A stretch of DNA of 64,000 nucleotides from Rhodothermales bacterium. GTDB lineage: Bacteria > Bacteroidota > Rhodothermia > Rhodothermales > UBA10348. The stretch spans positions 1 to 64,000 of the forward strand of contig JANJTM010000029.1 of assembly GCA_024711125.1 (NCBI GenBank). The letters run 5' to 3'. Under the pieces are notes generated by a model. The model worked only from the letters and a program-made list of their open reading frames with translations, did no database searches and was not told the origin of the DNA. Shown here one piece after another: positions 439 to 14,537 of this stretch. Each line of letters begins with the position of its first letter. Position 1 is the first letter of the stretch. Made by a program: the position numbers and the translations under genes.

Positions 439-3400
439 CTAGTTCCGCCTCCACGGCGTCGGGAACCCGCTTCCCGGGATGAGTTGTGGGTACGCCGGCG
501 GCTCGGGCCAGACCCGCGGGTCCGATGCGATCAGGCCGCGAAGGTGCTCGACGGCCGCCTCGAGCTGCGCGTCCTTCCCGCCCCACGTGGCATGCGGAAG
601 GTTGTCGACCTCGATGTCGGGCACGAATCCCCAGCCCTCGATCAGCCACTCGCCGTCTGCGAACACCCCGGTCTCGGAGGCGCGCGTGACGCCGCCGTCG
701 ACCTGGATGTTGGACCCGGAAAGCCAGACCTCGCCGCCCCAGGTGCGCACGCCGATCGACGCGCCGAGCCCGAGACGGCGGAACCCGTCGGCGACGGCTT
801 CGCCGTCCGACGCCGATCGCTCGTCGACGAGAATCACGAGGTGCCCTCCGAAGCTGAACTGCATGTTCGGAGTCACCCCTCCCGCACGGCCCTTGAACCA
901 GGCCCACGGCCGCCGAAGCAGCTGCGTAAGCACCCAGGAGTCGATGTTGCCGCCGCCGTTATGGCGAACGTCGAGGATCAACCCCTGCCGGTCCAGCTGC
1001 GAATAGAACTCCCGCGCGAACTGGCCGGCGTCGCCCGAGCCCATGGCGCGCAGGTGCACGTACCCCACCGTTCCGCCCGAGAGCGAATCGGCGGCGAGGC
1101 GGCGCGTATACTCCCACTCGTGGTAGCGGCGGTCGAATTCGTCGCCACCCGAGATGGCGGTCACGACCACGTCGCGTTCCGTGCCGCCGGGGTCCTGTAC
1201 GCGGAGGCGCACCTGCTTGCCGGCCTGTTCGACGAGCAACGCTCCGATCGAACGGGCATCGCGCGCCGGGCGGCCGTTGACGGCAAGGATCACCGAGCCC
1301 TCCTCCACCCGGGCGTCCGGATGGGCCAGCGGCGAGCGGAATTCGGGCAGGTCGGGGTCGTGGACGAGCCGGCGCACGAGGCGGAACCCTCCCGTCTTCG
1401 CGTCGCGATCGAAGTCACCGCCGAGGGCCGCGGGCGCGGCCTGGAACTCACCGGAACGGCGATCGCCTCCGCCCGCATTCGAATGCAGCAGACTGAGTTC
1501 CGAGACGAGCAGGCCCTGCAGGTCGGCCAGCTCCTCGCGGGCGCCGACGCGGGGCAGGAGCGGCGCGTACTTCTCGCGCATGGCGACCCAGTCGACGCCC
1601 CCCATGCCGGGATCCCAGAAATAGTCCCGGTGCAGCCGCCACATGTCCATGTAGATCTGGTTCCACTCGGCGCGCTTGTCCACGGCGAACGCCCAGTCGT
1701 CGAGGTGCACCTCGTTGTCGTCGTCGAGCTTCGCGTCGGCGCCGGCCGAGGATGCGATGACGTGCCACTTCGAGCCCTTGCGCACCAGGATCTTCTCGCC
1801 GTCGCCCGAGAGTTCGTACGCGGCCCCTTCGGCGACGATCTTGACCGGATCGGCGCCGTGCTTGAGGTCGAGAGCCATCAGGCTGCCCTCGTCCACCCAA
1901 TACAGGCGCTTGGCGTTCACTCCGAGGAGTCCCGGGGAGCCGGCCGCGACGGGCGCCTCGCGCAGGCGGTCGGCGAGATCCCAGCGAACCGGGCCACCCG
2001 ATCCCGCGGCCGCCGCCGGAGCCGACCCGGCAGTCGCCGCCGCCGGTTCGCCCGGCTCCGCGAAGGGAAAGACGGCCCCTTCGCGAAGCGGAATCGCGTA
2101 GATCTTCGCCGTATCGTCGAAATACGGCATGGGGGCGCGCTCGCCCCACGGGCTGCCGACGCGGGTGTTCCAGGTGCGCGTCGAGACGAACCAGAGCCAG
2201 TTGCCGTCGGGTGAGATCTGCGGTGCGTAATCGTTGAAGCGGTTGCTCGTGATGGGCACGGCGCGGCCGGTCGAGAGGTCGTGCGCCCAGAGCACGCTCA
2301 GCATGTTGCCGTCGGTCCGCCCGTACACGACCGTCTTCGAATCGGGGGTCCAGGCGACGGCCGACGAAGCCGGGGCCTCTGCGAGGAGCGTCATCTTCCC
2401 GCCCTCGGCGAGGTCGATCAGCCAGAGACGGCCGTCCCGGTTGGTATGTACGAGGTAACGCCCGTCGGGGGACGGCGTCGCGCCCTGGCGCAGCATCGCG
2501 GGACCATTCGTCACCTGCAACGGCGGCGCGGTGCCGTCGATGCGCACCTTCCACCACTCGAGTTCGCCGCTGCGGTCGCTGAGCGCGAAGACGTGCAGAC
2601 TGTCGGTCGTGAAGGTCACGTTGCGATAGCGCACCCCCGAGTCGCGGGATGCGTGGACCCAGCGGCCGGTGCCGACCGGCGCCGTGAACAGCTCGCCTCT
2701 GGCCACGAGGGCAACCGTCTTTCCGTCATGCGAGATGGCCGCGTCGCTCGCCGAGGGGGTCTTCTCCCAGTCCAGGAGGGATTGGCCGAGGTCCGAGGTC
2801 AGGCGGACATCCACCTTGCGGGCCTCCCGGCCCGGAGAGAGCGTCCAGAGATCGGCTCCCAGGCGGAACACCAAGCGTGTTCCGTCGCCCGCCAGCTCCT
2901 GGATGTCGAACTCCGTGAACCCGGTGTGCCGCAGGAGGTCCGAGCCGTCGGGCCGCATCGACCAGACGTTCATCGCGTCCTGGCGATCCGAGAGAAAATA
3001 CACGCGGCCGTCGGCGAGCACGTTCGGCTGGCGCGACGTGCCGGGATAGTCGGTGGTGAGCGGAACGGCTTCCTTTCCGGCGCCGTCGAAGCGCCAGAGC
3101 TTCTGGGCCGTTCCGCCCTTGTACCAGCGGCTGTTCGAGCCCTGGCGCGGCATTCTCGCAAATACCAGCGACCCTTCGGCGGTGACGTCCGCCTCGGCGG
3201 CCTGCGAGAGCGGGATCTCCTCGACCGCGCCCGAAGCCGGATCCACCCAGGCCAGTCGCGAGTCGGGCAGACCGGCCGTCCACGCACCGCGCACGAGTAC
3301 GCGCCCATCCGCGCCCCATCCGACCGGAATCGTCGAGGCGCGGGAGTCCCACGTGATGCGCCGCGGAGCGCCACCCGTCACGGGGATCACGTATACGTCG

Positions 3401-3672
3401 TTCGATCCCTCGTACGATGCCCGAAAGGCCACCTGCGCACCGTCGGGCGAGAAGACAGGGGCCGACTCCTCTCCGGCGTGGGCAGTCAGACGCACCGCAA
3501 GGCCCCCGTCGGCGTCGACCGTCCACAGATCGCCTTCCGCCACGAATACGATGCGGTCACCGTGGATGTCCGGGAAGCGGTAGTAGCCTTCGACCTGGGC
3601 CGAGACCGGCTGCGCGATCAGGCTCGCAAGGAACAGGGTCGCGACGGGGAGTAGCGGGTGCACGCGCTGCAT
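439..3672 (-). CDS. Tricorn-type S41 protease, exported
   Basis: A 1077-residue protein beginning with a signal peptide (residues 1-25, ending VSAQ) and therefore probably periplasmic. Residues about 30-600 form WD40/PD40-like beta-propeller repeats (for example FSPDGAQVAF and SPDGRYLVHT), as in the substrate-gating propellers of tricorn. A central C1 helical region follows, then a PDZ domain around 770-850 (ILAVNGRPARD) and a C-terminal S41 protease core with GYVHLRAMG and the serine-containing segment ERSASDGE near 950-957. Length and order match bacterial tricorn homologues, which trim oligopeptides. A -7-like element lies 41 nt upstream of the start. It is monocistronic and diverges from the interrupted tRNA. 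Confidence 0.9.
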   Translation of the reverse strand: MQRVHPLLPVATLFLASLIAQPVSAQVEGYYRFPDIHGDRIVFVAEGDLWTVDADGGLAVRLTAHAGEESAPVFSPDGAQVAFRASYEGSNDVYVIPVTGGAPRRITWDSRASTIPVGWGADGRVLVRGAWTAGLPDSRLAWVDPASGAVEEIPLSQAAEADVTAEGSLVFARMPRQGSNSRWYKGGTAQKLWRFDGAGKEAVPLTTDYPGTSRQPNVLADGRVYFLSDRQDAMNVWSMRPDGSDLLRHTGFTEFDIQELAGDGTRLVFRLGADLWTLSPGREARKVDVRLTSDLGQSLLDWEKTPSASDAAISHDGKTVALVARGELFTAPVGTGRWVHASRDSGVRYRNVTFTTDSLHVFALSDRSGELEWWKVRIDGTAPPLQVTNGPAMLRQGATPSPDGRYLVHTNRDGRLWLIDLAEGGKMTLLAEAPASSAVAWTPDSKTVVYGRTDGNMLSVLWAHDLSTGRAVPITSNRFNDYAPQISPDGNWLWFVSTRTWNTRVGSPWGERAPMPYFDDTAKIYAIPLREGAVFPFAEPGEPAAATAGSAPAAAAGSGGPVRWDLADRLREAPVAAGSPGLLGVNAKRLYWVDEGSLMALDLKHGADPVKIVAEGAAYELSGDGEKILVRKGSKWHVIASSAGADAKLDDDNEVHLDDWAFAVDKRAEWNQIYMDMWRLHRDYFWDPGMGGVDWVAMREKYAPLLPRVGAREELADLQGLLVSELSLLHSNAGGGDRRSGEFQAAPAALGGDFDRDAKTGGFRLVRRLVHDPDLPEFRSPLAHPDARVEEGSVILAVNGRPARDARSIGALLVEQAGKQVRLRVQDPGGTERDVVVTAISGGDEFDRRYHEWEYTRRLAADSLSGGTVGYVHLRAMGSGDAGQFAREFYSQLDRQGLILDVRHNGGGNIDSWVLTQLLRRPWAWFKGRAGGVTPNMQFSFGGHLVILVDERSASDGEAVADGFRRLGLGASIGVRTWGGEVWLSGSNIQVDGGVTRASETGVFADGEWLIEGWGFVPDIEVDNLPHATWGGKDAQLEAAVEHLRGLIASDPRVWPEPPAYPQLIPGSGFPTPWRRN

Positions 3673-3781: not shown

Positions 3782-3982
3782 GCGCCCGTAGCTTAATGGA
3801 AAAGGCTTGCCGAGGACGCCTCGCAGATGTCCCTGACGCCTTTCGGTGCCGTACCAGCCTCACACCACTGGGAGCGAGCCGATCGACACGCACGGACTAC
3901 CACTGCGAGGGGAAGCCGGAGGGCTGAAGAGCGCCGGATTATTAACCCGGATGCGCGGGTTCGATTCCCGCCGGGCGTGCCA
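3782..3982 (+). tRNA. tRNA gene interrupted by about 127 bp in the D-loop (anticodon ATT, Asn-like)
   Basis: The 5' part is acceptor strand GCGCCCG (3782-3788), TA, D-stem GCTT (3791-3794) and D-loop AATGGA (to 3800). The 3' part is D-stem GAGC (3929-3932), G26, anticodon arm CCGGA-TTATTAA-CCCGG (3934-3950, one A-C mismatch), variable ATGC, T-arm GCGGG-TTCGATT-CCCGC (3955-3971), acceptor CGGGCGT (3972-3978), G73 and encoded CCA (3980-3982). The acceptor strands pair over 7 bp (one G-U). Removing about 3801-3927 gives a normal cloverleaf. The insert's ends can pair (GGCTT at 3804-3808 with AAGCC at 3913-3917), which would bring the halves together. Anticodon positions 3941-3943 read ATT, unusual for bacteria (tRNA-Asn normally GTT). 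It may be an intron-containing, permanently inserted or dead tRNA. Confidence 0.5.
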
Positions 3983-3993
3983 TCGGGCATGAC

Positions 3994-5523
3994 ATGATGT
4001 CGGAAATCCCGGGCTGGCACCTCAACTTCGATTCCGCGCCGTTCTGCAACGGCTCGCTGCACCTAGGGCACGTGCGCAACTACGCGCTGGGCGACGTGCG
4101 TGCCCGATGGCTGCGATCGAGGGGGGTCGACGTCACCCATGCCACGGCGTTCGACGCCTTCGGGCTTCCTAACGAGATGGGCGCACGCGGATCGGGCATC
4201 TCGACCGATCGGTACGTCGCCCGACAGGCCCGGCGCATCGGCCGCCAGATGGATCGCGTGGGCTTCTCGTACGACGTGCCGCCGCGTGACTATAGCCGAC
4301 CCGGGGCCTACCGCTGGTCGCAGTGGCTCTTCCTGCGCATGTGGGACGCGGGCCTGGTCTATCGGGCCGAGCGCGGCGTTTCGTGGTGCCCCAACTGCGC
4401 CGAGGTGATCTCGGTCACGCAGGCCGACCGCAGCTCGTGCTGGCGCTGCAACGCGCACGCGACCTGGCGACGATCGACCGAGTGGTTCGTTCGATCCTCG
4501 GCCTATTTCGAGCGCCTGGGTCGGGGGCTCGAGACGCTGGACGGATGGAGCGACCGGGCGCGCAGACTCGCGCGGGAATCGATCGTGCGCATCCGCACGC
4601 TGGACCCGGACGGACCCGGCGACTGGTTGCTTTCGCGCGTGCGGTCCTGGGGCACCCCGCTTCCGATGGTCGAGTGTGCCGCGTGCGGCATCCACCCGGT
4701 GGACGATGCCACGCTCCCGGTCCGGCTGAAGGAACACGGGGGTGACGGTCTCGGGACCTGCCGGGGGTGCGGAACGCGGCAACCGCTGGTCGCACGTACG
4801 CTGGACTGCTTCTTCGACGACGCGTGGTGTTTCGAGGGGGCCGTGCGCGACGTCGCCCCGGACGAGAACCCGTTCGAGGCGTGGCGGGACCGCCCGCCCG
4901 CGCGGGTGCACTTCCACGCGGGCCACGACTCGTTTGCCTACCTGTTCGTCTTCCGCCTGATCGCGCACGTGCTCCACGACCTCGGGTTGTCGCGCCGCAC
5001 CGAGCCCATCGACTGGTTCCAGGGACACGACGTGGTGACGGCGGGCGGAAAGAAGATGTCCAAGCGCCACCGGAACGCCCCGAATCTCGATACGCTGCTC
5101 GATCGCGAGGGCGCGGCCGTGCTGCGCCTCTCGGTGCTGGCCGGCGCGAATCCGGACAAGCCGATGGCGTGGTCCGACGACGCGCTCGTCCGGGGGCGGC
5201 GGTTCGCCCGAACGTTGCAGCGGCTGCGGGACGCGGCTCGACCCGTCACGCCCGAGCAGGAGGCCGGCGTGCTCCAACGCATCGACGGGTTCTTCGAGGC
5301 GTACCGCATCGCTTCGGCCCTCGACGTCCTCTTTTCCGAGACGGAACGCGCGCTGAAAGCGGGCTCGACGAGGCCCGGCCGGCTGGCGGCGCTGCTGGCG
5401 CGGTGGGACCTGGTGGTTCCGCCCGACATGCCCGCTTGGAATCACGGCCCGTCCTCCGTTCCTTCCCCTTCGAGCTACCCCGAACCCCCATGCCCGGAAC
5501 CGTTCGACTCCACCGGGTCCTGA
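3994..5523 (+). CDS. Miniature leucyl-tRNA synthetase-like protein lacking the CP1 editing domain
   Basis: 509 residues. It has a class I aminoacyl-tRNA synthetase core of LeuRS type: HLGH at 23-26 in the HIGH position within GHVRNYALGDV, the AFDAFGLPNE segment, a Zn ribbon WCPNC/CWRC, the segment SRVRSWGTPLP that in LeuRS follows the editing insertion, a second Cys ribbon (CAACG/CRGCG), and KMSKR at 354-358. Bacterial LeuRS is usually above 800 residues. Here the CP1 editing domain is reduced to a short linker (about residues 195-210), the anticodon bundle is short, and the C-terminal domain is absent. Catalytic motifs are intact, so activation of an amino acid is plausible. It starts 11 nt after the CCA of the interrupted tRNA without a clear ribosome-binding site, suggesting cotranscription. 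ATG 3997 is an alternative start. The substrate is unknown. Confidence 0.8.
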   Translation: MMSEIPGWHLNFDSAPFCNGSLHLGHVRNYALGDVRARWLRSRGVDVTHATAFDAFGLPNEMGARGSGISTDRYVARQARRIGRQMDRVGFSYDVPPRDYSRPGAYRWSQWLFLRMWDAGLVYRAERGVSWCPNCAEVISVTQADRSSCWRCNAHATWRRSTEWFVRSSAYFERLGRGLETLDGWSDRARRLARESIVRIRTLDPDGPGDWLLSRVRSWGTPLPMVECAACGIHPVDDATLPVRLKEHGGDGLGTCRGCGTRQPLVARTLDCFFDDAWCFEGAVRDVAPDENPFEAWRDRPPARVHFHAGHDSFAYLFVFRLIAHVLHDLGLSRRTEPIDWFQGHDVVTAGGKKMSKRHRNAPNLDTLLDREGAAVLRLSVLAGANPDKPMAWSDDALVRGRRFARTLQRLRDAARPVTPEQEAGVLQRIDGFFEAYRIASALDVLFSETERALKAGSTRPGRLAALLARWDLVVPPDMPAWNHGPSSVPSPSSYPEPPCPEPFDSTGS

Positions 5524-5933
5524 AGGCACCCGCAGACCGGATCTTCAAGGCCCTGACCCAGCCCGACGCGCTCGTGCGCTGGAACCCGCCCTACGGGTTC
5601 ACCTGCACCGTGCACCACCTCGACGCGCGCGAGGGGGGGACCTTCCGCATGTCGTTCACCAATTTCTCGAGCGGAAGGAGCCACGCGTTCGGCGGCACCT
5701 ACCTCGAGTTCGTGCCCGGCGAACGCCTCGTCGCGACCGACACGTTCGAGGACGCGAGCCTGCCCGGCACCATGCGCACGACCTATTCGTTGCGGGCCGT
5801 TTCCTGCGGAACGGAGGTGGAAATCGTCCAGGAGGGCATCCCGGACCAGATCCCCGTCGAAATGTGCTACCTGGGCTGGCAGGAATCGCTCGAGCAGCTG
5901 GCAAGGCTGGTGGAGCCGGAGATCCCGGACTGA
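5490..5933 (+). CDS. SRPBCC / AHSA1-like (START superfamily) protein
   Basis: 147 residues. The opening RLHRVLKAPADRIFKALTQP, then LVRWNPP and GTFRMSFTNF, and the closing YLGWQESLEQLARLVE are typical of the AHSA1/SRPBCC fold, a small hydrophobic-pocket protein related to activators of Hsp90 ATPase and to polyketide cyclase-like proteins. No enzymatic residues can be assigned. The ATG lies inside the 3' end of the LeuRS-like gene (34-nt overlap in another frame), so the two genes are translationally coupled and probably form one transcription unit with the upstream tRNA. Confidence 0.8.
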   Translation: MPGTVRLHRVLKAPADRIFKALTQPDALVRWNPPYGFTCTVHHLDAREGGTFRMSFTNFSSGRSHAFGGTYLEFVPGERLVATDTFEDASLPGTMRTTYSLRAVSCGTEVEIVQEGIPDQIPVEMCYLGWQESLEQLARLVEPEIPD

Positions 5934-8344: not shown

Positions 8345-10249
8345 ATGTCCAGCCACTCCGAGCATGATAACGGCCAGTCGGCCGTCGCCTCCAAGAAGGT
8401 CCGTCCCCTGAGGGAACACGTCGTCGAGATCGTTTCGGACGCCGGCGAAGGCGCCCAGAAAGCCGGGCAGTCGTTCGGGACCGTCTCGGCCAAGATGGGC
8501 AACGGTGTCTGGACCGTCGAGATCATCCCCGCCGAGATCCAGCCGCCGCCGCGCAGCCAGGCCGGCGCGTCGGGCATCCGCGTGCGCATCGGAGCGTTCC
8601 CGATCACCAACATGGGTGACGAGGTCGACCTCATCGTCGCCTTCAACGAGCAGGCCCTGCTCGGCCGCCTCGCCGTGGCCAATTTCAAGCCGGGCTGCAC
8701 GATCCTGCTCGAGAACAAGTGGCGCGACCACGCCGATCCCGACATCGCGCGGGCCTACGGCACGGCGTACGCCCGCCTCGTCGAGGACGGGTACAAGGTG
8801 GTCGAGGTGCCGATGGAAGAGATCTGCCTCAAGTACGTGAACAACCCGCAGCTCGGGAAGAACATGTTCGTACTCGGGCTGCTCTGCAATCTGTACTCGC
8901 GCGACCTCGAGACGGCCCGCGAAACGGTGCGGTACGCGTTCCGCAAGAAGGCGCAGAAGGTCATCGACTCGAACGTCGCCCTGCTCGATGCGGGCTTCCA
9001 GTGGGCCGAGGAAAATGTCGATTACCGCTTCGAAGTGCCGCCGATGAAGATCGACGCGCCGCAGATCGTGGTGAACGGCAACCAGGCGATCGCGCTCGGT
9101 GTCATGGCATCGGGTATGGATGTCTGCGCGATGTACCCGATCACGCCGGCCACGTCGGCCTCGCACTACCTGAGCGAGATCTTCGAGAACGTGGGGGGCG
9201 TCGTGCACCAGGCCGAGGACGAGATCGCGGCCGCGGCGTTTGCCGTCGGCGCCTCCTACGCCGGCAAGTGCGCCGTCACGATCACCTCCGGCCCGGGCAT
9301 GTCGCTCAAGACGGAGGTGCTGGGGCTCGCCTCGATGGCCGAAATTCCGCTCGTCGTGGTCAACGTACAGCGCGGAGGCCCGTCGACCGGTCTTCCGACC
9401 AAGGTCGAGCAGGGTGACCTGCTGCAGGCCCTCTTCGGAACCCACGGAGACGCGCCCAAGGTCGTCATGGCGACCGCGACCATCGAGGACTGCTTCTACT
9501 CGATCCTCACGGCGCGACGCATCGCCGAGACCTTCCGCATCCCGGTGTACGTGTTGAGCGACGCCAACCTCGCGACCGGCCAGCAGCCCTTCAACCGCCC
9601 GGAGTTCCGGTCGGAATGGGTGGCCCCCCCGTTCGACCAGCGCCCGGTGCCCAAGGGCACCAAGCCCTACGACTGGGACGAAAAGACCGGTTTGTCCACC
9701 CGCCTCATCCCCGGACAACCCGGTGGCATGTTCACGCTGACCGGTCTCGCGCACTCGGCCGAGGGCAAGGTGGCCTACGGGCCCGGCGTGAACCAGCAGG
9801 GCATGACGAAGCGTTCGCTGAAACTCGCCGCCCTGCAGAAGACGCTCAAGGCGCCCGCGGTGTTCGGTGACGAGGAGGGCGGCGACCTGCTGCTGGTGGG
9901 CTGGGGCTCGACCAAGGGGGCGATCGAGGAGGCCGTCACGCGCTGCCGCGAGGACGGGCTCTCGGTCTCCAGCCTGCACCTCACGTTCCTCCAGCCGATG
10001 GCCTCGGGCATCGGGGACATCCTCAAGCGCTTCCGCCAGGTGGTCTGCGTCGAGATCAACTACTCGGACTCGACGGAGGAAGAGCTTATCGACGACGAGA
10101 ACCGCCGCTATTCGAACCTGTCCCTGCTGCTGCGAGCCCGCTACCTCGTCGACGTGCAGAACTGGACGAACGTGCACGGGCAGCCGATCGGGCCCGGGCG
10201 CATCGAGTCCATGATCCGCACGCGTCTTGGCGTGATGCAGCCCGCCTGA
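8345..10249 (+). CDS. korA: 2-oxoacid:ferredoxin oxidoreductase, fused gamma-alpha subunit (KorA type)
   Basis: 634 residues. The N-terminal ~200 residues are the gamma domain (RVRIGAFPITNMGDEVDLIVAFNEQ). The rest is the alpha, pyrimidine-binding domain starting at VNGNQAIALGVMASGMDVCAMYPITPATS and including QAEDEIAAAAFAVGASYAGK and TSGPGMSLKTE. This gamma-alpha fusion is typical of two-subunit 2-oxoglutarate (or related 2-oxoacid):ferredoxin oxidoreductases, which convert a 2-oxoacid and CoA to acyl-CoA, CO2 and reduced ferredoxin in the cytoplasm. The beta subunit follows after 67 bp. First gene of the operon that continues into rnf. Substrate assignment as 2-oxoglutarate is inference. Confidence 0.9.
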   Translation: MSSHSEHDNGQSAVASKKVRPLREHVVEIVSDAGEGAQKAGQSFGTVSAKMGNGVWTVEIIPAEIQPPPRSQAGASGIRVRIGAFPITNMGDEVDLIVAFNEQALLGRLAVANFKPGCTILLENKWRDHADPDIARAYGTAYARLVEDGYKVVEVPMEEICLKYVNNPQLGKNMFVLGLLCNLYSRDLETARETVRYAFRKKAQKVIDSNVALLDAGFQWAEENVDYRFEVPPMKIDAPQIVVNGNQAIALGVMASGMDVCAMYPITPATSASHYLSEIFENVGGVVHQAEDEIAAAAFAVGASYAGKCAVTITSGPGMSLKTEVLGLASMAEIPLVVVNVQRGGPSTGLPTKVEQGDLLQALFGTHGDAPKVVMATATIEDCFYSILTARRIAETFRIPVYVLSDANLATGQQPFNRPEFRSEWVAPPFDQRPVPKGTKPYDWDEKTGLSTRLIPGQPGGMFTLTGLAHSAEGKVAYGPGVNQQGMTKRSLKLAALQKTLKAPAVFGDEEGGDLLLVGWGSTKGAIEEAVTRCREDGLSVSSLHLTFLQPMASGIGDILKRFRQVVCVEINYSDSTEEELIDDENRRYSNLSLLLRARYLVDVQNWTNVHGQPIGPGRIESMIRTRLGVMQPA

Positions 10250-10316
10250 CGCACCCTCGGCGAAGGCACCCATCGAAACACCCTGCGCAGCCCCGCTGCG
10301 CCTTTCCTACAGCGCC

Positions 10317-11279
10317 ATGTTCGGACTCCAGGAAACCGCCACCCTCGACCAGGGAAACGACTATTACAGCCTGCAGGACTACCAGTCGGCCGTTCCGCGC
10401 TGGTGTTCGGGCTGCGGCGACAACACGATCCTTTCGAGCGTGCAGAAGCTGCTGCGCGACGAACAGCTTCCGCCCGAGAAGACCGTGTTCGTGTCCGGAA
10501 TCGGGTGTTCGTCCCGTTTTCCGCACTACATGGGCACCTACGGCTTCCACTCGCTGCACGGACGCGCGCTGCCGATCGCGCAGGGCATCAAGATCCGCCG
10601 GCCCGACCTGAACGTCTTCGTCAACATGGGCGACGGCGACTGCTGTTCGATCGGAACCGCGCACTGGATCCACGCCATCCGCTACAACTTCAAGATGGTG
10701 GCGATGGTGCACGACAACGAGGTGTACGGGATGACCAAGATGCAGGCGTCCCCGACCTCGCCGAAGGGCCTCAAGACGAACACCACGCCGAAGGGCACCG
10801 TGCTCGACCCGCTCAACATGCTGACGGCCACGCTGGGCATCTCGAACGTGTCGTTCGTCGCCAACGTGGTCGAGTGGATCCCGGAAATGATGTACCAGGT
10901 GCTGAAGGCGGCGTATCACCACAACGGATTCGCCTTCGTGCGCATCGTACAGCGCTGCCCGCACTTCCTGCCGAACATCTTCGATCCGCTCATGCGGGAT
11001 CCCGACAAGATCCTCATGCTGACCGACGAGAACGGGCTGAAGCCCTCGGCCGACCTGCGCAAGATCTACAAGAACGAGATGGCGCACGATCCGTCGAACA
11101 TCCACCGGGCCCGCGAGATCGCCAGTTCGATGGACCCGATGCCGTGCGGCGTGCTGTACCGCAACCCTGACGTGCCGGTCTACGACGAACTGCGCCGCGC
11201 GCAGCGGGTCGTCACGCACGACGTGCGCCGCGAGGCGCTCGACCGCGAGTTCGACCGGTTTGCCGTCAACGTTTCCTGA
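10317..11279 (+). CDS. korB: 2-oxoacid:ferredoxin oxidoreductase beta subunit (KorB type)
   Basis: 320 residues. It binds thiamine diphosphate: the GDGDCCSIGTAHWIHAIRYN segment and the following NEVYGMTKMQASPTS are the conserved TPP/Mg region. The N-terminal WCSGCGDN and a later Cys would help ligate the 4Fe-4S cluster seen in this family. Together with the fused gamma-alpha subunit it forms an alpha2beta2-type enzyme. The next gene starts 9 bp downstream, so its products are probably made together with the downstream ferredoxin-like protein. Confidence 0.92.
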   Translation: MFGLQETATLDQGNDYYSLQDYQSAVPRWCSGCGDNTILSSVQKLLRDEQLPPEKTVFVSGIGCSSRFPHYMGTYGFHSLHGRALPIAQGIKIRRPDLNVFVNMGDGDCCSIGTAHWIHAIRYNFKMVAMVHDNEVYGMTKMQASPTSPKGLKTNTTPKGTVLDPLNMLTATLGISNVSFVANVVEWIPEMMYQVLKAAYHHNGFAFVRIVQRCPHFLPNIFDPLMRDPDKILMLTDENGLKPSADLRKIYKNEMAHDPSNIHRAREIASSMDPMPCGVLYRNPDVPVYDELRRAQRVVTHDVRREALDREFDRFAVNVS

Positions 11280-11288
11280 GGCCCTTCC

Positions 11289-13673
11289 GTGGAAGCCATC
11301 GAAACCTCCCTCGCCGAACCGGTCGCGACCGAGGACGCCGCGGCCCCGGCCGGCAGGACCTCCGTGCGACGGCCGGCTCCCCGCGACGTCGAGGACGCCG
11401 CCGCTCCGGGCGAGGCCCGGCGGGTGATTTCCCAATTCGTCCGCACCGGACGAGCGCCCGAAGGCTCGTCGCTGCATCCGGGGATCGGCGACAGGCTGCC
11501 GGTGGCCCTGTTCCACGCGCTCTCCTCGCCCGCGTTGCGTTCGCCGTACCCGGTCGTCATCGACGCGGCCGGCGGAGCGCTCCAGGTGCGTCCGCTCGGC
11601 GAGGCGCTCGACGCCCTTGCCGACGTACCCGGGGTTGAAGGGGAAGCGGCCGAGCTGAACCGGTTCTTTCTTCGGAGGGTGGAGACCGCCCTCCGGTCGG
11701 GCACGGTGGTCGACCCGTCGCTCGTGCAGGCCTGGAAGGCCGCTTGCGCCACGGTGCGGGCGTCGACGCGCGAGGATCGCCTCGCCGCGTTCGACGCGTT
11801 CGCCGCAATCACCGGGAAGTCCCTGTCCGTTTCGGCGTCCCTGCTGCCCTGCGAGCCGGAGACGGCGCGCCTGTTCGCACGCGCGGTCGAGGAACGCCTG
11901 TCGACCGAACGCGGACGGGACCTCGTGGCCGAGGCCGATACCCTGCGCCTGTCGCTGTCGGCTCTTCTCGAGGTCGAGAAGGAAGCCGGCCATGACGCCG
12001 TGGCGCCCGACCGGCTCCGCCGGACCGTGGGGGGCGCCCTCGAGAGCGCGTTCGACTTCGACGCCCTGTCGAGCCTTCTCGACGAGGCGCCGCATGGTCC
12101 GGGAATGGCGCCGGAGCGCCGCTCCCGCATCGAATCGCTGGTCGAGACGCTGGCCCATGCCGCGACGTTGTTTTCGTCCGAGGTCGTCTGCCGGCTCGAC
12201 GAGGCCGAAGAGCGCATGGCAGAGCAGACCGCGAACCTGGCTTCGCTCCTCCGCGCGCTGGAAACGGCACGGCTGGAGGCCGCCAACCGGTTCCGCGCCG
12301 ACCTGCACGGCCCGTTGCTCGACGGTTACAGGGCCGACGCGCTGTCGGCCGAAGACCTCGAGCGGTGCCCGCCCGTCGTGGTGGAGGCCGACGAGGCCTC
12401 CCTCGCGGAGGAGCACCTGGGCATGCTGATGTCACTGCTCCGGGATCGGCGGCCGTTCAAGGTGATCCTCACGCTGCGAGCTGCGCCCGGCGGGCCGTTC
12501 GGCGACGCCGCGTCGCTCGCCACGGGCCTCGGAACCGCCTTCGTCGCGCAGGTCGCGCTGAGCGACGTGTCCGGCTGGACGACCGCCGTGGAGCAGGGAT
12601 TCGCCCATCCGGGTCCGGCGCTCCTTGCCCTGTACGCCGGAGGGCCCGGCTTCGACCGGTTGACCCCGTACCTCGCGGCTGCGGCCGCGCGCGACGGGCG
12701 GGCGGTGCCGACCTTCGTATTCCGCCCGACGCCGGGTGTGCCGTGGGCCGACCGCCTGTCGGTGGCGTCGAACGACCTGCCGGACGGCGACTGGCTGACG
12801 ACCGTCGTACCCGTAGTGGCCGACGACGATACGGAGGAGGCGCTCGAGACGACCTTCACGTGGATCGACCACGCCGCCTGCGTACCCGCCTTCGGTACCG
12901 AATTCCTCCCCGTGCCGGCCGACGCCGAGCCGCCGGGTCTCGTGCCGGTCGACCGGTTCCTCGGGATGGACACGGCCGAACGGTCACGCGCCTTCCCCTA
13001 CGTGCTGACGGTCCGGCCGGACGGCGTGCTCGAAAAATGCGTCGTTACGGCGCGCCTCACCGAGCGGGCCGAGGTCGCCCTCGACCGCTGGCGCCGGCTT
13101 CGCGAACTGGGCGGCGTCGGAAATTCGTTTGCGGAACGGGCCGAGGCCGCCGCCGGGCGACGGTTCGCGGCCGAACGGGACGTGGCCGTCGCGGCCGCGA
13201 GGGAGGCGCACGCCGCTGAGATGGATCGCGCCGTCTCTTCGCTCGCCGAGTCGATCGTCGCGAATATCGCCGCATCCCTGCTCGACCTCGAACCGGGCAC
13301 GGCCCCCCGGACGGCGCCAACCCGTACGGCCGCGCCGGCCGCTGCCGCGCCGGCTCCGGCCGAGGGCGAGCCCGCGACCGCGGTCGCCGCGCCCGCGACC
13401 GAGCCGGAGGAAGAGCCCCTGGTCCTCGACGAGGCCTACATCGAGACCCCGCGGTGTACCTCGTGCAACGAGTGCACGCAGCTCAACGGCATGATCTTCG
13501 GCTACAACGCGGAGAAGCAGGCCTACATCAAGGACGCGTCGGCCGGTCCCTACCGCGATCTCGTCATGGCGGCCGAAAAATGCCCGGTGCGCATCATTCA
13601 CCCCGGCAAACCCCTCAACCCGAACGAATCGGGGCTCGACGACCTGGTCGAACGGGCAAAGGCCTTCCGCTAG
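11289..13673 (+). CDS. PFOR-related protein with C-terminal ferredoxin-like Cys motif, probably non-catalytic
   Basis: 794 residues of mostly unfamiliar sequence. Residues about 385-480 resemble the end of the TPP domain of pyruvate:ferredoxin oxidoreductase (AFVAQVALSDV with PGPALLALYA, as in the PFOR VAQVA...PGPSLIIAYAP region). The upstream GDG..N TPP motif cannot be found. An Ala/Pro-rich linker at about 680-715 leads to a C-terminal domain with CTSCNECTQLN and a later KCPVRI, a C-x2-C-x2-C...CP pattern for one Fe-S cluster. The same PFOR-like segment recurs in the 1372-residue protein two genes downstream. It lies 9 bp after korB and 3 bp before rnfB, so an electron-carrying or docking role between Kor and Rnf is likely but unproven. 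Confidence 0.7.
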   Translation: MEAIETSLAEPVATEDAAAPAGRTSVRRPAPRDVEDAAAPGEARRVISQFVRTGRAPEGSSLHPGIGDRLPVALFHALSSPALRSPYPVVIDAAGGALQVRPLGEALDALADVPGVEGEAAELNRFFLRRVETALRSGTVVDPSLVQAWKAACATVRASTREDRLAAFDAFAAITGKSLSVSASLLPCEPETARLFARAVEERLSTERGRDLVAEADTLRLSLSALLEVEKEAGHDAVAPDRLRRTVGGALESAFDFDALSSLLDEAPHGPGMAPERRSRIESLVETLAHAATLFSSEVVCRLDEAEERMAEQTANLASLLRALETARLEAANRFRADLHGPLLDGYRADALSAEDLERCPPVVVEADEASLAEEHLGMLMSLLRDRRPFKVILTLRAAPGGPFGDAASLATGLGTAFVAQVALSDVSGWTTAVEQGFAHPGPALLALYAGGPGFDRLTPYLAAAAARDGRAVPTFVFRPTPGVPWADRLSVASNDLPDGDWLTTVVPVVADDDTEEALETTFTWIDHAACVPAFGTEFLPVPADAEPPGLVPVDRFLGMDTAERSRAFPYVLTVRPDGVLEKCVVTARLTERAEVALDRWRRLRELGGVGNSFAERAEAAAGRRFAAERDVAVAAAREAHAAEMDRAVSSLAESIVANIAASLLDLEPGTAPRTAPTRTAAPAAAAPAPAEGEPATAVAAPATEPEEEPLVLDEAYIETPRCTSCNECTQLNGMIFGYNAEKQAYIKDASAGPYRDLVMAAEKCPVRIIHPGKPLNPNESGLDDLVERAKAFR

Positions 13674-13676
13674 GCC

Positions 13677-14537
13677 ATGGCTGCACTCACGGCCATCGGA
13701 TACCTCGCCGCGCTCTGCGTCGCGCTGGCCGGGCTGCTCGCCCTCGCCCAGCGAAAGCTGTACGTCTGGGAGGACCCGCGTATCGACGACGTGACCGACC
13801 TCCTGCCGGGAGCGAACTGCGGAGCGTGCGGCCTTCCGGGCTGCCGGGCATTCGCCGAGAGCGTGGTGGGCGGAACGATCCAGCCCGGACAGTGCACGGT
13901 AGGCGGTCCGGACGGCGCCACCCGGGTCGCCGAATATCTCGGAATCGACGCCGGCTCGATGGAGAAGCAGGTCGCTCGCCTGCTCTGCGCGGGCGGAACC
14001 GACCAGGCGGTACAGGCAGGCGCCTACGCAGGATACTCCTCGTGCCGCGCCGCCGCGACCGTGGCGGGCGGACCGAAGGAGTGCACCTGGGGCTGCCTGG
14101 GCCTCGCCGACTGCCGTGATGCTTGCACGTTCAACGCGATCACGATGGCCCCCAACGGGTTGCCGGTGGTGGACCTCGACCTGTGCACGGCATGCGGCGA
14201 CTGCGTGCGCGCGTGTCCGAAGCAACTGTTCGAGATCCTGCCGGCCCGCCGCCGCCTGATCGTCCAGTGCCGTTCCCTGCTCGAAGGGGACGCGGCCCTC
14301 GCCACGTGCAACGTCGCCTGCACGGCATGCGGCCTGTGCGTCGCCGACGCGCCCGAAGGACTGCTGTCGATGCAGCGCAACCTGCCGGTGGTCGACCCCG
14401 CGCGCAACGAACTCGAAACCGCCATCGCGACCTATCGGTGCCCGACGGGCGCGATCGCGTGGGTCGAAGGCCAGCAGTTCCCGACCCTCCACGAATCCCT
14501 CGCTTCCGACAAGGCACGCCATGCTGTTCCGGCGTAG
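13677..14537 (+). CDS. rnfB: Rnf complex subunit B, ferredoxin-interacting Fe-S protein
   Basis: 286 residues. One N-terminal membrane helix (residues 3-24) is followed by the RnfB 4Fe-4S motif CGACGLPGC and a downstream Cys. Then come the RnfB-specific segment CTWGCLGLADCRDAC and two ferredoxin-like motifs, CTACGDCVRACP and CTACGLCVADAP. In the last motif the usual fourth Cys is Ala; a later RCPTGAI could supply the missing ligand. RnfB takes electrons from reduced ferredoxin. It overlaps the next gene by 17 bp, so translation is coupled. Confidence 0.9.
   Translation: MAALTAIGYLAALCVALAGLLALAQRKLYVWEDPRIDDVTDLLPGANCGACGLPGCRAFAESVVGGTIQPGQCTVGGPDGATRVAEYLGIDAGSMEKQVARLLCAGGTDQAVQAGAYAGYSSCRAAATVAGGPKECTWGCLGLADCRDACTFNAITMAPNGLPVVDLDLCTACGDCVRACPKQLFEILPARRRLIVQCRSLLEGDAALATCNVACTACGLCVADAPEGLLSMQRNLPVVDPARNELETAIATYRCPTGAIAWVEGQQFPTLHESLASDKARHAVPA

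Follow-up and report, generated by a model that had tools for sequence, protein, structure and literature searches.

A tRNA with a long D-loop arm and a stripped-down LeuRS-like enzyme form a two-gene module in a few related Rhodothermales bacteria

The window, the whole stretch of 64,000 nucleotides analysed here, comes from a member of the order Rhodothermales and carries a tRNA gene with a large extra arm in its D-loop, followed directly by the gene of a stripped-down enzyme related to leucyl-tRNA synthetase (LeuRS), hereafter the mini-LeuRS. These two genes, about 1.7 kb in the window, constitute a module that is present in a few related bacteria, and the charged RNA which it would yield is probably a special product that ordinary protein synthesis does not need. 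The features of the locus are as follows.

3782..3982, plus strand: long-D-arm tRNA gene, body 3782-3979 and encoded CCA 3980-3982 (alignment of eight homologues; covariance model R1, 184.9 bits)
3782-3788 / 3972-3978, plus strand: acceptor stem, GCGCCCG / CGGGCGT, with a G1-U72 pair (alignment of eight homologues)
3791-3794 / 3929-3932, plus strand: D-stem (alignment of eight homologues)
3804..3925, plus strand: extra arm of the D-loop, with helices P1 (3804-3807/3922-3925), P2 (3818-3826/3903-3911) and P3 (3829-3838/3889-3897) (covariation)
3934..3950, plus strand: anticodon arm, loop TTATTAA 3939-3945, anticodon AUU 3941-3943 (sequence)
3955..3971, plus strand: T arm, GCGGG-TTCGATT-CCCGC (sequence)
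3979, plus strand: discriminator G (alignment of eight homologues)
3994..5523, plus strand: mini-LeuRS-like synthetase, 509 amino acids, with neither CP1 editing domain nor C-terminal domain and with a remodelled amino-acid pocket
5490..5933, plus strand: AHSA1/SRPBCC protein (Pfam AHSA1, E 2.2e-30), which begins inside the 3' end of the synthetase gene; outside the conserved module

An earlier sequence-only reading of this locus was borne out by the 509-residue translation in its description of the enzyme: HLGH (residues 23-26), KMSKR (354-358) and two CxxC...CxxC zinc ribbons (C132/C135/C149/C152 and C228/C231/C256/C259) are intact, the CP1 editing domain and the C-terminal domain are missing, and the ATG lies 11 nt downstream of the CCA that ends at 3982. 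Translation may begin at 3997, because the alignment of the relatives starts at the second Met. The LeuRS family model TIGR00396 matched the protein with an E value of 1.4e-56 and 192 bits, below the 548-bit equivalog cut-off, and a profile of the mini-enzyme family compared with the PDB matched LeuRS (E 8e-92) far better than MetRS (6e-27). The core is of class Ia, with HxGH and KMSKS, and the mini-LeuRS is a class Ia synthetase closest to LeuRS. The comparison of a predicted structure with LeuRS that had been proposed pointed the same way: the best Foldseek matches of the AlphaFold2 model (pLDDT 75 and pTM 0.79 with LeuRS rows in the alignment; pLDDT 49 from a three-sequence input) were all LeuRSs, among which the Mycoplasma mobile enzyme had the top TM-score (TMq 0.76).

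HxGH and K(M/I)xK are kept in all eight mini-enzymes found. CP1 is absent from four of them (the window, L006, L094, and L095), and the other four have a degenerate insert of 130-140 amino acids at its position. This insert gave no convincing Pfam match, and in hhalign it paired only with the first half of CP1, and weakly (E 7.8e-5, probability 61%), the catalytic half being missing, which reads as an editing domain that has eroded within the family. Our phylogenetic tree placed the eight mini-enzymes in one group apart from the canonical LeuRSs, including the host's own, although the branches are long and the root is uncertain. Because the host genome encodes a separate full-length LeuRS (900 amino acids, with CP1; L029, at G000:C32), the mini-LeuRS is not its sole enzyme of this type. 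That housekeeping LeuRS reads NTMPQWAGSCWYY where most LeuRSs read DTMDTFVDSSWYY, as does L112 in another genome of the class.

The RNA folds, judging from its alignment with the relatives, as a tRNA with a D-stem of GCUU/GAGY, a variable loop of four bases, and a normal anticodon arm, and it retains G18G19, the T-loop, and a normal cloverleaf core. The extra arm of ~122 nt is inserted after the D-loop GG and before the 3' strand of the D-stem. Its helices have strong support from covariation: changes on both sides were seen in 17 of 42 pairs, against 8.4 in shuffled controls and 4-8 when the partner strand was slid, and the alignment of eight sequences to the model gives 18 such pairs. All eight homologues share one acceptor-stem sequence, and this stem and the T arm barely change while the anticodon drifts, from GUU in six (L006, L007, L025, L027, L094, and L095) to AUU in the window and ACU in L028. 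C33 stands in place of U33 in L094 and L095, and the anticodon stem is mismatched in the window and L027. The discriminator is G73 in six homologues and A73 in two. ARAGORN called no tRNA at 3782-3982, presumably because of the D-loop insertion, and no Rfam family matched the extra arm, whether group I or another catalogued intron or a ribozyme.

Several identities for this RNA were considered and set aside. A long variable arm is required of tRNA-Leu, so the long-armed RNA, with its four-nucleotide variable loop in place of the class II arm, is not a tRNA-Leu; A73 is moreover found in only two of eight. An elongator tRNA-Asn does not fit the AUU anticodon of the window, the ACU of one homologue, the C33 of two, and the 122-nt D-loop arm. 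The tmRNA model matched the T arm alone (18.9 bits against a cut-off of 47), and as for a tmRNA-like tag frame in the insertion, an ATG is conserved in most homologues, yet reading from the conserved GATG meets a stop after five codons in L006 and 11 in L028. Nor is G1-U72 a special hallmark, being shared by four canonical host tRNAs (Arg-CCT, Glu-CTC, Glu-TTC, and Leu-CAA). Among host tRNAs the core is closest to tRNA-Arg(UCU), with 55 of 72 positions. The 44 tRNAs found with RF00005 in the host genome include an ordinary tRNA-Asn(GUU).

We searched 245 genomes from the class Rhodothermia (the class) with the protein and with the covariance model of the RNA. A strict protein search found six genomes, all of one order (Rhodothermales, to judge by L006 and L007), while the covariance model, at E below 1e-18, recovered these six and added only G080 and G081. 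In the two added genomes the RNA is followed by a divergent 464-residue member of the enzyme family (33% identity), which had escaped the strict protein search. RNA and enzyme thus occur in the same eight of 245 genomes and neither occurs alone; the RNA is directly upstream each time, 3-24 nt from the start codon at seven loci and about 330 nt at that of G097. This co-occurrence upholds the claim of a dedicated pair distinct from the housekeeping LeuRS. In the wider phylum search, those of the matches listed that fell outside the order sit in frames of LeuRS length, and a search of viral contigs gave distant matches only. Very large phage genomes carry LeuRS-like genes to which most of the query aligned in one piece (LR756501.1 192207-193445 and LR745206.1 404867-405892), and in these CP1 may be short or absent. 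Two cyanobacterial plasmids (L121, AP018309.1 62549-64309; L122, NZ_CP083583.1, about 683.9-685.3 kb) encode a different LeuRS that is devoid of the CP1 editing domain, keeps the C-terminal domain and the leucine pocket, bears the signature HVGN rather than HVGH, and has no tRNA nearby.

The neighbourhoods of the eight loci are unrelated, and no gene neighbourhood conserved across their genera was found. The sole common neighbours are hisF-hisIE, within one genus, and the other flanks differ; what ORFs are otherwise shared are the synthetase itself or shadow frames over the synthetase and RNA, together with a weak similarity among flanking proteins of L007, L025, and L096. The tRNA-synthetase part of the triplet envisaged in the sequence-only reading was recovered at all eight loci, whereas the SRPBCC/AHSA1 protein, taken there as a possible partner, lies beside the window locus only, and no flanking gene is common to different genera. 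On the other side of the tRNA gene, a divergently transcribed gene for a Tricorn-type S41 peptidase (439-3672, minus strand) adjoins it and is not conserved at the other loci. Further along the window (8345-14537) are 2-oxoacid:ferredoxin oxidoreductase-like genes and then an electron-transport-like protein with Fe-S motifs, the translations having been judged by eye.

G079 holds a remnant of the module (L110, G079:C10, 19120-19800) beside the same hisIE. A single deletion, which took most of the RNA and the N-terminus of the enzyme, left the tRNA's first bases running into the central part of the enzyme, and further frameshifts break the frames. Because the two genes were lost together they are dispensable together, and this remnant, with the lack of any module match in G082 of the same genus, indicates that the module is accessory and can be lost as a unit. 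Where it is kept, both parts are under purifying selection: between G080 and G081 the RNA is identical at 202 of 204 positions and the synthetase gene has a dN of 0.075 and a dS of 0.359 (dN/dS about 0.21), the neighbouring hisIE having a dN of 0.044 and a dS of 0.706.

The pocket for the amino acid is altered in a consistent manner. At the leucine-pocket positions all eight mini-enzymes have S14, A15, F17, D276, C/S279, D312, and Y316, where the canonical LeuRSs compared have M40, F/L/Y41, Y43, S496, Y499, H533, and H537; the E. coli LeuRS numbering was assigned by motif. The aspartate that holds the amino group (E. coli D80) is kept as D54 in the window enzyme, as are the ATP motifs. This is the pattern of a putatively active enzyme with a new substrate, and the changed pocket of all eight mini-enzymes speaks against leucine as the amino acid. 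The substitutions predict a changed substrate without naming it, although the conserved Asp 276 suggests, speculatively, a polar or larger side chain. In E. coli LeuRS, M40, L41, Y499, Y527, and H537 have been mutated for other substrates (PMC6610526), and engineered LeuRSs for non-canonical amino acids often add the editing-site change T252A (PMC6610526; PMC7782748).

The best explanation, to which we give about an even chance of being right, is a dedicated pair: the mini-LeuRS would load the tRNA encoded beside it with a non-leucine amino acid, and the product would serve some purpose other than general translation. This explanation is suggested by the exact co-occurrence, the covarying arm, selection, the joint loss, the pocket changes, the lost editing, the fixed acceptor beside a drifting anticodon, and the host's possession of its own LeuRS and tRNA-Asn(GUU). 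The drifting anticodon, the long arm, and the dispensability of the module also speak for the earlier proposal of a role other than proteome-wide translation. In this dedicated pair, the two genes of a self-contained accessory module would probably be co-transcribed, and processing of the tRNA ends would leave a mature RNA and a nearly leaderless mRNA. The RNA would fold as a tRNA of short variable loop with the covarying arm projecting from the elbow, at the D-loop. The mini-LeuRS would activate its amino acid and attach it to the long-armed tRNA only, recognising the acceptor, the T arm, and possibly the elbow arm but not the anticodon. The charged RNA would then be excluded from general elongation and most likely donate its aminoacyl group in a transfer reaction catalysed by an enzyme encoded away from the module. 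Several points count against this explanation: UU is kept at positions 35-36 of seven of the eight anticodons, so the RNA may retain some residual decoding, and no transferase gene common to the module loci was found nearby. Candidate users of aminoacyl-tRNA gave no partner either: none of the 12 genomes searched, which comprise eight carriers and four non-carriers of the module, has LPG synthase, and the Leu/Phe-transferase occurs in some only and does not track the module.

If the RNA does decode, it could bring a non-cognate or non-canonical amino acid to some Asn codons (AAU/AAC), as regulated mistranslation or a restricted expansion of the code, perhaps through a special arm-recognising factor. 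The GUU or AUU anticodon of seven homologues, the tRNA body with its normal core, and a synthetase free of editing would suit such a role, but the ACU anticodon in L028/L097 belongs to a Ser codon, C33 replaces the near-universal U33 in G080 and G081, the anticodon stems of the window and L027 are mismatched, the normal tRNA-Asn(GUU) would compete, and no special elongation factor is linked to the module; we consider it unlikely, while placing it ahead of the other alternatives. A regulatory device comes next and is improbable in our judgement: a tRNA-mimicking leader or sensor would bind the mini-LeuRS, either to sense an amino acid or for autoregulation, and charging would act as a signal, not as a step in donation. 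The strict linkage, the unconserved anticodon and, at seven of eight loci, a start codon that lies 3-24 nt past the RNA and has no obvious Shine-Dalgarno sequence before it accord with this device. Such a leader, however, would not need the intact acceptor end that is the most conserved part of the RNA, the ORF of G097 is about 330 nt away, and the catalytic pocket has been remodelled and kept, not left to decay. As a further point against the dedicated pair, the mini-LeuRS could in principle be an inactive RNA-binding protein.

LeuRS and TyrRS assist the splicing of some group I introns. The 122-nt insertion lies inside a tRNA gene, and its removal could leave an ordinary extra tRNA, with the LeuRS-like protein as splicing helper. 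We hold this to be very unlikely: the insertion is too short for a group I core, Rfam matched no intron or ribozyme, the covarying helix P1 adjoins the D-stem, a splicing helper would not need the strictly conserved pocket, and the excised tRNA would keep its AUU, ACU, or C33 anticodon loop. A pseudogene pair or annotation artefact, for which the patchy distribution and the decayed copy in G079 might be cited, is hardly credible and is already contradicted by the covariation, the dN/dS of G080 and G081, and intact frames with conserved motifs at all eight loci.

Within the preferred reading of a dedicated pair, we tentatively entertain a more specific form, which is rather less probable than the reading itself. 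The pair would be natural and orthogonal: an enzyme derived from LeuRS, its pocket rebuilt, would place a non-proteinogenic or unexpected amino acid on a tRNA of a new structural class, for an undescribed tRNA-dependent reaction. The D-loop arm would act as a private domain for recognition or delivery, possibly in place of the lost C-terminal domain. We know of no bacterial tRNA with a large structured D-loop arm. As far as the accessible parts of the literature and libraries searched extend, none was found, nor did the portions consulted of the open-licence literature on LeuRS paralogues, unusual tRNAs, and dedicated tRNAs describe such a tRNA/synthetase pair. If charging with an amino acid other than leucine is true, the module would offer genetic code expansion a useful orthogonal pair from nature, exemplify how a LeuRS can evolve a new specificity, and point to a tRNA-dependent reaction not yet known. 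Being only two genes, it is directly assayable.

The mini-LeuRS shares its catalytic core, HIGH and KMSKS motifs, zinc ribbons, and fold with bacterial LeuRS (TIGR00396), but it has lost the CP1 editing and C-terminal domains, its leucine pocket is changed throughout, and it scores far under the cut-off of that family. The LeuRS of Mycoplasma mobile (3ziu), which likewise lacks a CP1 editing domain, is the housekeeping enzyme of that organism and was solved with Leu-AMS in its site, whereas the mini-LeuRS of the window comes in addition to the host's ordinary LeuRS, differs in its pocket, and has a tRNA to itself. To our knowledge, no synthetase paralogue of the SbzA type has a dedicated tRNA, and none of the tRNA-Pyl, tRNA-Sec, and allo-tRNA class has an extra arm of ~120 nt in the D-loop. 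Those non-canonical tRNAs (reviewed in PMC7609411) are unusual like the long-armed RNA, with a dedicated synthetase in the case of tRNA-Pyl/PylRS, but they decode stop or other codons and differ by altered arm lengths. SbzA-type paralogues resemble the mini-LeuRS as synthetase relatives used for chemistry outside translation; they serve natural-product clusters that surround them (PMC9437257; PMC6331615), whereas no such cluster is conserved around the window module. LeuRS-I of Sulfolobaceae and LeuRS2 of Halobacteria are also duplicated LeuRSs, with damaged or reduced charging and suspected roles outside translation, but they are archaeal and bind tRNA-Leu, and no dedicated odd tRNA is mentioned for them (PMC9437257). 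Finally, the synthetase paired with this tRNA has pocket changes like those that engineers introduce to retarget LeuRS: the engineered E. coli enzymes are changed at the same pocket positions (M40, L41, Y499, Y527, and H537), often with an editing-site mutation in addition (PMC6610526; PMC7782748), but they are laboratory-made, whereas the mini-LeuRS of the window is a natural enzyme whose partner tRNA is not tRNA-Leu.
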